Assembly: GCA_028377625.1 (NCBI GenBank)
Contig: JAONKT010000004.1
Span: 1 to 37,506, forward strand
Reading direction: 5' to 3'
DNA length: 37,506 nt
DNA from: Candidatus Nitrosopumilus sp.
GTDB lineage: Archaea; Thermoproteota; Nitrososphaeria; Nitrososphaerales; Nitrosopumilaceae
In this document: positions 977 through 5,187 of the stretch, one piece after another
How positions within the stretch are numbered: the stretch's first letter is position 1
Layout of the letters: each line of letters opens with the position of its first letter
Translations under genes and position numbers: made by a program
The notes under the pieces: generated by a model
Told to the model about the DNA's origin: nothing
Database searches by the model: none
Seen by the model: the letters and a program-made list of their open reading frames with translations, nothing else

Positions 977-1096
977 TTAGATGTAATCTGCAAATAAGTA
1001 TAATCCAATTAAAGTCATACCTAATGCTGCAAAACCTAATTTCACAAGAAATACTTTTGATTTACTTAACTGAGGAATTATTTTTTCAATTTTCAT
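977..1096 (-). CDS. 39-residue single-span membrane peptide, last gene of the PII operon
   Basis: The peptide has a basic N-terminus (MKIEKIIPQLSKSK) followed by one hydrophobic segment (about residues 15-37), so it is probably one membrane span with the N-terminus inside. Its ATG overlaps the TGA stop of the preceding gene in the classic ATGA arrangement, which argues for a real, translationally coupled gene. I recognise no family. It has the same size and plan (basic head, one span, short tail) as the 40-residue peptide directly after the PII gene, so the two may be distant copies. A role at the membrane with the Amt transporter is inference from context only. Confidence 0.6.
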   Translation of the reverse strand: MKIEKIIPQLSKSKVFLVKLGFAALGMTLIGLYLFADYI

Positions 1097-1362
1097 TTTA
1101 AATCTACAAGTATTCTTTTTGTTCCTCTATTAACAGTAATGTAAGCTTGTTTTGGTTTTTCTACTATTTCTTCAGATTTTTCTAAATATTTTCTTTGAGT
1201 TCCTCTAGTAGATGAAATAATTGTTCTTTTTCTTTTGAATAAAATTTTGGTTTTTCTATCTTCTTGGAAATTTTTAAACTCATTTCCTGCCCAATTATAA
1301 TTAATTTCTTCATCTACTACTTTTTTCCCAGTTCCTCTTTTTGTGATTAATAATAAACTCAT
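1093..1362 (-). CDS. Basic 89-residue protein with three RGT repeats
   Basis: I do not recognise a family. The protein is rich in Lys and Arg and shows three spaced copies of a short pattern: a hydrophobic strand, then Thr/Asn-x-Arg-Gly-Thr, then basic residues. The RGT triplets are at residues 9-11, 53-55 and 79-81. Each is preceded by an alternating hydrophobic run (LLLIT, TIISST, AYITVN) and followed by Lys/Arg and Val, Leu or Tyr. This suggests three related beta-hairpins. There is no signal peptide or membrane span. It is the third gene of the leftward PII operon, 13 bp after the 40-residue membrane peptide, and its stop overlaps the start of the 39-residue peptide. Confidence 0.6.
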   Translation of the reverse strand: MSLLLITKRGTGKKVVDEEINYNWAGNEFKNFQEDRKTKILFKRKRTIISSTRGTQRKYLEKSEEIVEKPKQAYITVNRGTKRILVDLK

Positions 1363-1375
1363 TTTATTGACACAT

Positions 1376-1498
1376 CTACATTGACCAATAAGTCATAATT
1401 ACTGGTGGAATTGTAATGATCCCTGCAATAATTGGAATTTTTAAGTAGTCTTTTTTAGTTAATTTTGATGATTTAATTTTCTCAAATGATACTTTCAT
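1376..1498 (-). CDS. 40-residue single-span membrane peptide abutting the PII gene
   Basis: The peptide begins with a basic head (MKVSFEKIKSSKLTKKDYLK), then a hydrophobic span (about residues 21-38, IPIIAGIITIPPVIMTYW). Its ATG follows the TAA stop of the PII gene with no base between them, so it is almost certainly translated from the PII message. It belongs to no family I recognise. The span contains a Pro-Pro pair, which would kink a helix. Its position between a PII protein and further small genes suggests a membrane-anchored partner, but nothing in the sequence proves this. Confidence 0.6.
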   Translation of the reverse strand: MKVSFEKIKSSKLTKKDYLKIPIIAGIITIPPVIMTYWSM

Positions 1499-1828
1499 TT
1501 AGATTACCTCTTCACCCTCATTACCTGAACCAATATCTATTGCACGTAACATTTGTGAAATGAAGATTTTACCTCCTCTAGAATTTTTCTTGACTATTTC
1601 AACTGTTTTCTCTTCTTTTGATTCTGGTATTACAACCATTACTCTATATTTATCTGCAAAATGAGGAACAAAAATTTCCATTCCTTTTGAAGAATGGATT
1701 TCAGCTGCGGTCTTTGCACCTCTTCCTCTAACTTTGATAACTGTTAATCCGCCAATTCCTATTTCTTTTAATCCTTCACTAATATTCATTACATCGTTTT
1801 CTGCAAGTATGATTTCAAGTTTTAACAT
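1499..1828 (-). CDS. glnK: Divergent nitrogen-regulatory PII protein (GlnK-like)
   Basis: The length (109 residues) and pattern fit PII: N-terminal strand MLKLEIILAEN, helix, then GGLTVIKVRGRG (26-37), the T-loop (about 37-57), VMVVIP (64-69), a B-loop region and the C-terminal GSGNEGEEVI. PII trimers sense ATP/ADP and 2-oxoglutarate and block Amt channels with their T-loops. Two departures are clear. The T-loop (AKTAAEIHSSKGMEIFVPH) has no tyrosine at the usual modification site. The B-loop reads NSRGGKIF, about three residues shorter than the usual TGxxGDGKIF. Ligand binding may therefore differ. The gene is divergent from amt, with a TATA-like TATTATTT (reverse strand of about 1851-1858) 27 bp upstream of the ATG. 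Confidence 0.8.
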   Translation of the reverse strand: MLKLEIILAENDVMNISEGLKEIGIGGLTVIKVRGRGAKTAAEIHSSKGMEIFVPHFADKYRVMVVIPESKEEKTVEIVKKNSRGGKIFISQMLRAIDIGSGNEGEEVI

Positions 1829-1888: not shown

Positions 1889-1942
1889 TTGTAAATCAAA
1901 TTGGAAAACTGTTAAATGCAAAAACTCGATTTCATTATAATT

Positions 1943-3238
1943 ATGATTGATACTGGAGATACAGCATGGATGTTAATTGCTGGATGTTTAGTATTGTTAA
2001 TGATTCCTGCACTGGGATTATTTGAATCTGGTTTATTGAGAAAGAAAAATGTGGTTTCAATTTTTATGCAAATATTTTTCGGAATGTCATTACTTAGTGT
2101 AATGTGGTTTGTTTTTGGATTTAGTCTCTCTTTTGGTCCTTCTACAACTGGTATCATAGGTAATCTTGATTGGTCATTTTTGAAAGGTATTCCTTGGGAT
2201 GCACCTTTAGAACAATATGCACCTAGTATACCTGGCGTTCTCTTTGTTAAATTCCAATTAATGTTTGCATGTATTACTCCGTTATTACTTACTGGAACAA
2301 TCGCTGAAAGAATGAAATTTAGCTCATTTATTATATTCATATCTGCATGGTCAATGCTAATCTACTATCCAATCGTTCACATGGTCTGGGGTGGTGGATG
2401 GTTAGCACAACTAGGTGTCGTTGACTTTGCTGGTGGTATTGTTATACATACTACTGTTGGAATGGCTGCACTTGCAGCTGCTCTTGTACTTGGAAAAAGA
2501 CGCGGATTTGGTCCAGCAATAAATATTCCACATAGTATTCCTCTTGCTGTATTAGGTTCTTCATTATTATGGCTAGGTTGGTTTGGATTTAATGCCGGTA
2601 GTGCATTAGCATCTGGCGGTGTAGCTGGAAATACCGTTATTGTAACTCACTTAGCTTCTTCAGTTTCCGCTTTAATTTGGGCAGGGTTGTCTTGGATGCG
2701 TACAGGTAAACCATCAATTGTTGCAACCATTAATGGTGCAATTGCTGGACTTGCAGGAATCACACCTGCATCTGGATATGTCAGTGTTGAACATGCATTT
2801 GTTCTTGCAATAGCAATAGGTGTACTATCTTATGGTGGAGTTGTACTAATTCGAGATAAATTAAAAATTGATGATGCACTTGATGTAAGTTCTGTACACG
2901 GCATTGCAGGTATTGTCGGTGCACTTGGAATTGGTATCTTTGCAAGTACTTTGATAAATCCTTCTGGAGTTGATGGATTACTATATGGTAATTATGATCA
3001 AATTTGGATTCAAGGTGTTGGAATTGCAGTAGCTGCTGCAATGGGATTCGGTGGAACCTGGATATTATTACAATTAATTAAACATCTAATTGGAATTCGT
3101 GTTGAACCTGAAGAGGAAGACATTGGTTTAGATATTAGTGAACATGCTGAACAAGCTTACTCTGACGAAGAGGAGTTTAAGTTCACTCCAAATGACTACA
3201 TGCAACCATCTAACAAAGACAAATCAAATAGTTCTTGA
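1943..3238 (+). CDS. amt: Amt-family ammonium transporter
   Basis: This channel passes ammonium into the cell, supplying nitrogen and, in an ammonia oxidiser, possibly substrate. It has about 11 hydrophobic spans. Counting from the longer ATG at 1916, it shows the two pore histidines (H155 in YYPIVHMVWGGG and H328 in VSSVHGIAG), the Asp of VVDFAGG (D170), and the phenylalanines of QLMFACITP (F117) and WFGFNAG (F225). The C-terminal tail is long and acidic, ending in Asn/Ser-rich sequence. The ATG at 1943 (MIDTGDTAW) is preferred over 1916: it removes nine residues that do not fit the family, and GTTAAATG at 1911-1918 is then about 28 bp upstream as a TATA-like box. The divergent PII gene is the expected partner. 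Confidence 0.93.
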   Translation: MIDTGDTAWMLIAGCLVLLMIPALGLFESGLLRKKNVVSIFMQIFFGMSLLSVMWFVFGFSLSFGPSTTGIIGNLDWSFLKGIPWDAPLEQYAPSIPGVLFVKFQLMFACITPLLLTGTIAERMKFSSFIIFISAWSMLIYYPIVHMVWGGGWLAQLGVVDFAGGIVIHTTVGMAALAAALVLGKRRGFGPAINIPHSIPLAVLGSSLLWLGWFGFNAGSALASGGVAGNTVIVTHLASSVSALIWAGLSWMRTGKPSIVATINGAIAGLAGITPASGYVSVEHAFVLAIAIGVLSYGGVVLIRDKLKIDDALDVSSVHGIAGIVGALGIGIFASTLINPSGVDGLLYGNYDQIWIQGVGIAVAAAMGFGGTWILLQLIKHLIGIRVEPEEEDIGLDISEHAEQAYSDEEEFKFTPNDYMQPSNKDKSNSS

Positions 3239-4608: not shown

Positions 4609-5187
4609 TTGAAAAAGATTGAGGCTATTATTAATCGAAAAAATTACCCCTCAATTCGTGAAAAATTAGATGCTTTAGGCATAGATATTATTGATAAACG
4701 AAATTTAGAAGATAGTAGATTTACCAGTCAGTCAAAAGGATCTAGAGTTGGCGGATCTGCAGTAAGATCTACAATGCTTGCAAAAATCGAATTAGCAATG
4801 TCTGATAAAGTTGCACGAGAAGTAGTTGATATAATTTCTAAAAATTCAGGACTTCCAAAATCTATTCCAAGTAAAATTTTTGTCTTTGACATGCAAGAAA
4901 CAATTGATCTCAATACTCTAAAAGGTGAATCTGAAACAGAAGCAGAATCTGAAGAAGAAGTTTCAGTTACTCCTAGATTTGTTACTAAACGTAATAGACT
5001 AGTCCCACTTCAAAAAAGAACATTATACAAATTAGAACAATATTATGATAAACATAGTGAAGTTCTAGAATCTGATTATAGAATTCGTTCGTTTAGTGAT
5101 TTTGTTAATTACTGCATAATGAAATATTTACCAACACTTGATAAACAATTAAAGAACCAAACAATTCTTTATGAAGATGTTTTATAA
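4609..5187 (+). CDS. PII-like domain with a C-terminal ribbon-helix-helix-like extension
   Basis: Residues 1-101 follow the PII fold: MKKIEAIINRKNY, a helix, a strand, a loop with GSRVGGSAVRST, the strand MLAKIELAM, a helix (DKVAREVVDIISKNSG), then SKIFVFDMQETIDL. The last stretch corresponds to the PII GKIFVxxVEEAIRI region. An acidic linker (about 106-118) leads to a basic 70-residue tail. In the tail, RLVPLQKRTLYKLEQYY and RSFSDFVNYCIMKYLPTLD resemble the strand-helix and second helix of a ribbon-helix-helix DNA-binding domain. That assignment is by eye. The start is TTG at 4609, giving the MKKIEAII start usual in PII; no ATG fits. The gene follows the reductase gene after 113 bp containing the palindrome. 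It could be a nitrogen-responsive regulator. Confidence 0.72.
   Translation: MKKIEAIINRKNYPSIREKLDALGIDIIDKRNLEDSRFTSQSKGSRVGGSAVRSTMLAKIELAMSDKVAREVVDIISKNSGLPKSIPSKIFVFDMQETIDLNTLKGESETEAESEEEVSVTPRFVTKRNRLVPLQKRTLYKLEQYYDKHSEVLESDYRIRSFSDFVNYCIMKYLPTLDKQLKNQTILYEDVL

Follow-up and report, generated by a model that had tools for sequence, protein, structure and literature searches.

The locus studied here raises the question of whether three very small genes, which follow a PII gene in an archaeon of the family Nitrosopumilaceae, are real genes and whether they take part in the control of ammonium uptake. Marine ammonia-oxidising archaea, which rank among the most abundant microorganisms of the sea, obtain nitrogen as well as energy from ammonia, and few nitrogen switches are as conserved as the control of Amt transporters by PII. 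To our knowledge, archaea are without GlnD, the enzyme which resets this switch in bacteria. The window, i.e., the whole stretch of 37,506 nucleotides that was analysed, is one contig (JAONKT010000004.1) of a Candidatus Nitrosopumilus genome that is 59% complete (GCA_028377625.1). Inspection of its ORFs revealed on the minus strand, in this order, the genes for a GlnK/GlnB-type PII protein of 109 aa (1828-1499), a basic peptide of 40 aa with one predicted C-terminal membrane helix (1498-1376), a basic, putatively soluble protein of 89 aa with three RGT motifs (1362-1093) and a single-span membrane peptide of 39 aa (1096-977). For the last three the names TMa, RGT3 and TMb were coined here. The start codon of TMa begins with the base right after the PII stop codon (spacing of 0 nt), 13 nt separate TMa from RGT3, and RGT3 and TMb share 4 nt in an ATGA overlap. 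The four ORFs, including the zero spacing and the overlap, are present as first described and are coding. According to the ORF boundaries, an intergenic region of 87 bp (1829-1915) separates PII from the divergent gene of the ammonium transporter Amt1 (440 aa; 1916-3238, plus strand), an arrangement which is also present in relatives. The operon is adjoined by a gene for a Snf7-like (ESCRT-III/CdvB-type) coiled-coil protein (239-892), whose Pfam match is sub-threshold. The window also encodes, at 4609-5187, another protein with a PII domain, which is extended at its C-terminus and whose gene is convergent to the TMa/TMb cassette in most relatives.

The identity of the two larger proteins is clear. 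The PII protein of the window matches Pfam P-II (PF00543) over residues 1-99 (E 1.8e-14), solved PII structures align with it over its full length, and it belongs to the PII family as its P-II domain spans the whole protein of ~110 aa. The T-loop tyrosine (Tyr51 position) is absent, according to both the alignment to solved PII proteins and the family alignment. In bacteria Tyr51 of the T-loop is the uridylylation site; a tyrosine-less T-loop is a known archaeal variation and no bar to PII membership. Amt1 is a member of the Amt/Mep/Rh family, with a full-length match to Ammonium_transp (PF00909; E 1.3e-112) and a TIGR00836 match above its cut-off, and its C-terminal tail is acidic (net charge of -7 to -12). 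A search for co-adaptation yielded no visible sign of it, as the Amt1 tails and the PII T-loops are alike with and without the small membrane peptides. Two contigs labelled Chitinophagaceae and Brocadia (L148, L163) carry an archaeal Amt1-PII pair nearly identical to that of Nitrosopumilaceae and are probably misbinned.

For the question of whether the small ORFs are genes, profiles of TMa, TMb and PII were run against 200 genomes of the family, and 67 organism-named loci were added. PII followed by TMa and TMb was found in 86 loci, a count which draws on two collections and includes many near-identical species pairs. The TMa/TMb pair lies immediately behind PII, with Amt1 divergent, in Nitrosopumilus, in Nitrosopelagicus and in some sister lineages, most commonly in the order PII-TMa-TMb without RGT3. 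All 56 loci that lack RGT3 exhibit an overlap of exactly 4 nt between TMa and TMb. The spacing between PII and TMa ranges across the loci from 0 to 14 nt; as the frame varies with it, a PII-TMa fusion through stop-codon readthrough was ruled out. Median dN/dS values were 0.28-0.41 for TMa, 0.22-0.29 for TMb and 0.36 for RGT3, compared to 0.11-0.12 for PII, and in both TMa and TMb third codon positions take 57-60% of the substitutions. Recurrence in 86 loci, third-position bias and low dN/dS argue for more than chance ORFs, and by every sequence measure available TMa and TMb are coding genes under purifying selection. The original prediction that the small ORFs are real genes coupled to PII is in line with these values and with the conserved overlaps, and a look for missing ORFs or broken frames in close relatives did not overturn it. 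The synteny of all four genes across relatives holds in part only: PII-TMa-TMb is kept, whereas RGT3 is missing in most.

Each of the two peptides contains one hydrophobic stretch, which agrees with the earlier view of them as single-span membrane peptides. The predicted structure of TMa exhibits a helix at residues 15-39, with a pLDDT of ~92 over residues 21-40, and its net charge is ~+5. The TMb helix displays a conserved stripe of small residues and the invariant positions K19, A23 and G26. With a wider profile, stand-alone relatives of the TMa core with a length of 32-33 aa, e.g., MGRFKPLEKKDYIKIAVIFGIIAVPLIFAVSIQ, were detected in genomes of two sister genera (g4 and g14); these relatives (L166-L170, L175-L182) lie away from PII and Amt, and most of the genomes in question contain Amt1-PII and are without the cassette. 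Given these unlinked genes, TMa is, as judged by its sequence relatives, not exclusively a protein of the PII operon. In genomes of a further lineage, g18 (L172-L174), proteins of ~80-95 aa begin with a TMa-like membrane segment, which is followed by an unrelated conserved domain.

The distribution of the peptides was compared with that of Amt1 and PII by raw counts, in which shared ancestry is ignored. In the window's genus, which is represented by 45 genomes in the sample, the same 30 genomes carry Amt1-type PII and TMa, and all 30 also carry TMb. The 15 genomes without this PII contain neither TMa (0/15) nor an intact TMb (0/15); the G146 match in this genus is weak and lies inside a frame of 415 aa. 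Amt1 was sought in 13 of these 15 genomes and found in none of them, with twelve containing only the other transporter (44-46% identity) and one having no match. One genome (G185) has lost Amt1, PII, TMa and RGT3 and retains a TMb remnant without a start codon. Losses within the window's own subclade (G185, G187, G189) suggest that several events took place. A strong TMa match was obtained in 58 of the 200 genomes; 57 of these also carry Amt1-type PII, and they include 12 of the 13 genomes in which TMa is unlinked. That the presence of TMa tracks Amt1-type PII even when unlinked supports a functional link, although the unlinked relatives also allow a wider membrane role of TMa. As Amt1-PII occurs without the cassette in the lineages g9 and g17 and in most of g18, this pair does not depend on the peptides. 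Synteny, coupling and co-occurrence thus favour the earlier assignment of the membrane peptides to the PII/Amt1 unit, and their gain and loss with Amt1-PII suggests that they help in the control of ammonium uptake.

The third small gene has a different origin. RGT3 belongs to a family of basic triple-RGT proteins of ~81-91 aa, which in a sample of 250 genomes of the phylum was found only in Nitrosopumilaceae. An alignment of 20 sequences contains the invariant positions R9 G10 T11, G26, K30, R53 G54 T55 and R79 G80 T81, and RGT3 shares with the other members the three RGT motifs as well as the central G and K of the NWAGxxFKxFQ segment. It differs from them in its location in the PII operon and in its diverged branch (~30-35% identity); in the cases viewed, family members elsewhere lie away from PII, including one in the window's genome which adjoins a transaldolase gene. 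Members of this family (L002 1447-1707 and relatives L016-L031), whose three motifs read RGT(G), often occur in at least two copies per genome. RGT3 lies between TMa and TMb in 30 of the 86 loci, with a 4-nt overlap at the junction with TMb in 25 of these 30, and is absent from the cassette in the other 56, which rules out the three accessory genes as one ancestral set. The RGT3 loci are monophyletic in both the PII tree and the Amt tree (SH-aLRT 99 in each), and one clade in both trees points to a single insertion of a family member between TMa and TMb. As far as the trees and counts indicate, RGT3 is a paralogue from another family, which entered the operon later and in particular lineages and was not part of the original set, so the accessory genes cannot be treated as the single unit that they had been taken for. 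Its AlphaFold model, which contains one helix and three hairpins whose turns carry the RGT motifs, is of poor quality (pLDDT 61, pTM 0.26). A match to Pfam MBDa was dismissed as sub-threshold (E 0.011), and no relatives turned up when viral contigs were scanned with RGT3 and PII.

The history of the locus appears to differ from that of its hosts. In the RGT3 clade the Nitrosopumilus lineage of the window is united with g19, a group to which Nitrosopelagicus (L113) belongs. This union is rejected by the GlyRS tree (AU p 3e-5), while PII rejects a single clade for the window's genus (AU p 0.02). The simplest reading of this conflict between the locus tree and the GlyRS marker tree would be horizontal exchange of the locus, a reading supported by a single marker gene and a single short protein. 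Compared to two g19 lineages (L007, L012), the window's Amt1 exhibits 98% protein and 85-86% DNA identity, whereas the neighbouring PII is ~82% and TMa ~55% identical.

Based on these sequence comparisons, our main reading, for which we estimate a probability of about 0.5, is that TMa and TMb, as small membrane proteins with coupled translation, may be accessory to the switch by which Amt1 and PII govern ammonium uptake in marine Nitrosopumilaceae. According to the positive-inside rule, each peptide would span the membrane with a single helix and keep its basic N-terminus on the cytoplasmic side, and it would sit beside the Amt1 trimer. The positive tail of TMa would then face the cytoplasm, close to PII and to the acidic C-terminal tail of Amt1. 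There, with a PII that lacks the modifiable T-loop tyrosine, the peptides could recruit PII to Amt1 or stabilise it on Amt1, or they could tune the channel; alternatively, they might be auxiliary Amt1 subunits through which PII acts. The original idea of a membrane dock or a channel inhibitor is plausible within this reading. RGT3 would have joined the operon later as a soluble partner, in Nitrosopelagicus and the window lineage, and a binding of RGT3 to PII or Amt1 is a guess. It is rather unlikely, though conceivable, that all of these proteins form one multi-part Amt1 switch: PII would act together with TMa and TMb as membrane micro-subunits, joined in Nitrosopelagicus and the window lineage by RGT3, whose three hairpins would engage the threefold trimer of Amt1 or of PII; if true, this would be a membrane-anchored PII control, which is not known in other organisms.

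The co-loss with Amt1 would also be expected if the peptides were structural subunits of Amt1, serving its assembly, stability or lipid packing without a direct part in PII signalling. Their single-span form fits with such a role, and the small-residue stripe of TMb with K19, A23 and G26 suggests helix packing. However, in every cassette locus the peptides are coupled to PII and not to the divergent Amt1, and sister lineages possess Amt1 without them, which leaves a purely structural function a possible but doubtful explanation. Against both this role and that of a PII dock stand the Amt1 tails, which do not differ between genomes with and without the peptides, and the lineages that possess only Amt1-PII. 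The stand-alone TMa-like peptides at an unrelated locus in g4 and g14 point in another direction, namely to a general membrane function unrelated to ammonium (e.g., in stress or protein quality control), with the peptides merely being carried in a constantly expressed operon. We regard this as unlikely, since both peptides are absent from genomes of the window's genus without Amt1-PII and unlinked TMa still accompanies Amt1-type PII in 12 of 13 genomes.

Finally, the small ORFs might not be translated at all, their frames being due to chance or to a leader sequence. They are very short, none of TMa, TMb and RGT3 matches a curated Pfam or NCBIfam family, and a Shine-Dalgarno-like site is mostly absent ahead of TMa and TMb. 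Yet purifying selection, third-position bias and the 4-nt overlap in 56 of 56 loci make this highly improbable, as do the genomes of g22 (L034, L140), in which TMa is inverted between PII and TMb with its frame intact on the opposite strand.

As far as searched, TMa, TMb and RGT3 represent three apparently undescribed protein families, two of them with only 30-45 aa, for which sequence profiles are now at hand. In line with the original prediction, which knew of no described case, no description of TMa/TMb was found in the open literature, with subscription papers mostly outside the search, and the open literature likewise contained no published data on small ORFs of cultured strains. In E. 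coli, PII blocks Amt via its T-loops. The locus resembles the glnK-amtB pair in having PII beside an Amt transporter, but here the two genes diverge, the T-loop of PII has no tyrosine, and PII is followed by genes for two membrane peptides. KdpF, CydX and AcrZ are tiny hydrophobic subunits with a single helix, which are encoded beside the complex they serve. TMa and TMb are of the same kind in being tiny, hydrophobic, single-helix and encoded beside a putative partner complex; unlike them, they are coupled to the gene of the regulator and not to that of the transporter, and no sequence relation to subunits of this type was found. Among archaea, an association of PII with AmtB was reported for Haloferax (PMC3831643). 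The nearest precedent is sP36 of Methanosarcina mazei, which bridges GlnK1 and AmtB1 (PMC10714827) and is, like TMa and TMb, a very small archaeal protein tied to PII-Amt where GlnD-type PII modification is absent. sP36 consists of 61 aa, lacks a transmembrane helix and assembles into soluble hexamers (PMC10714827), whereas TMa and TMb are predicted to be single-span, do not match such a soluble adaptor and are encoded in the PII operon, a distinction which is based on the description of sP36. If TMa and TMb do act on Amt1-PII, they would represent a second archaeal solution, embedded in the membrane, beside the soluble sP36.
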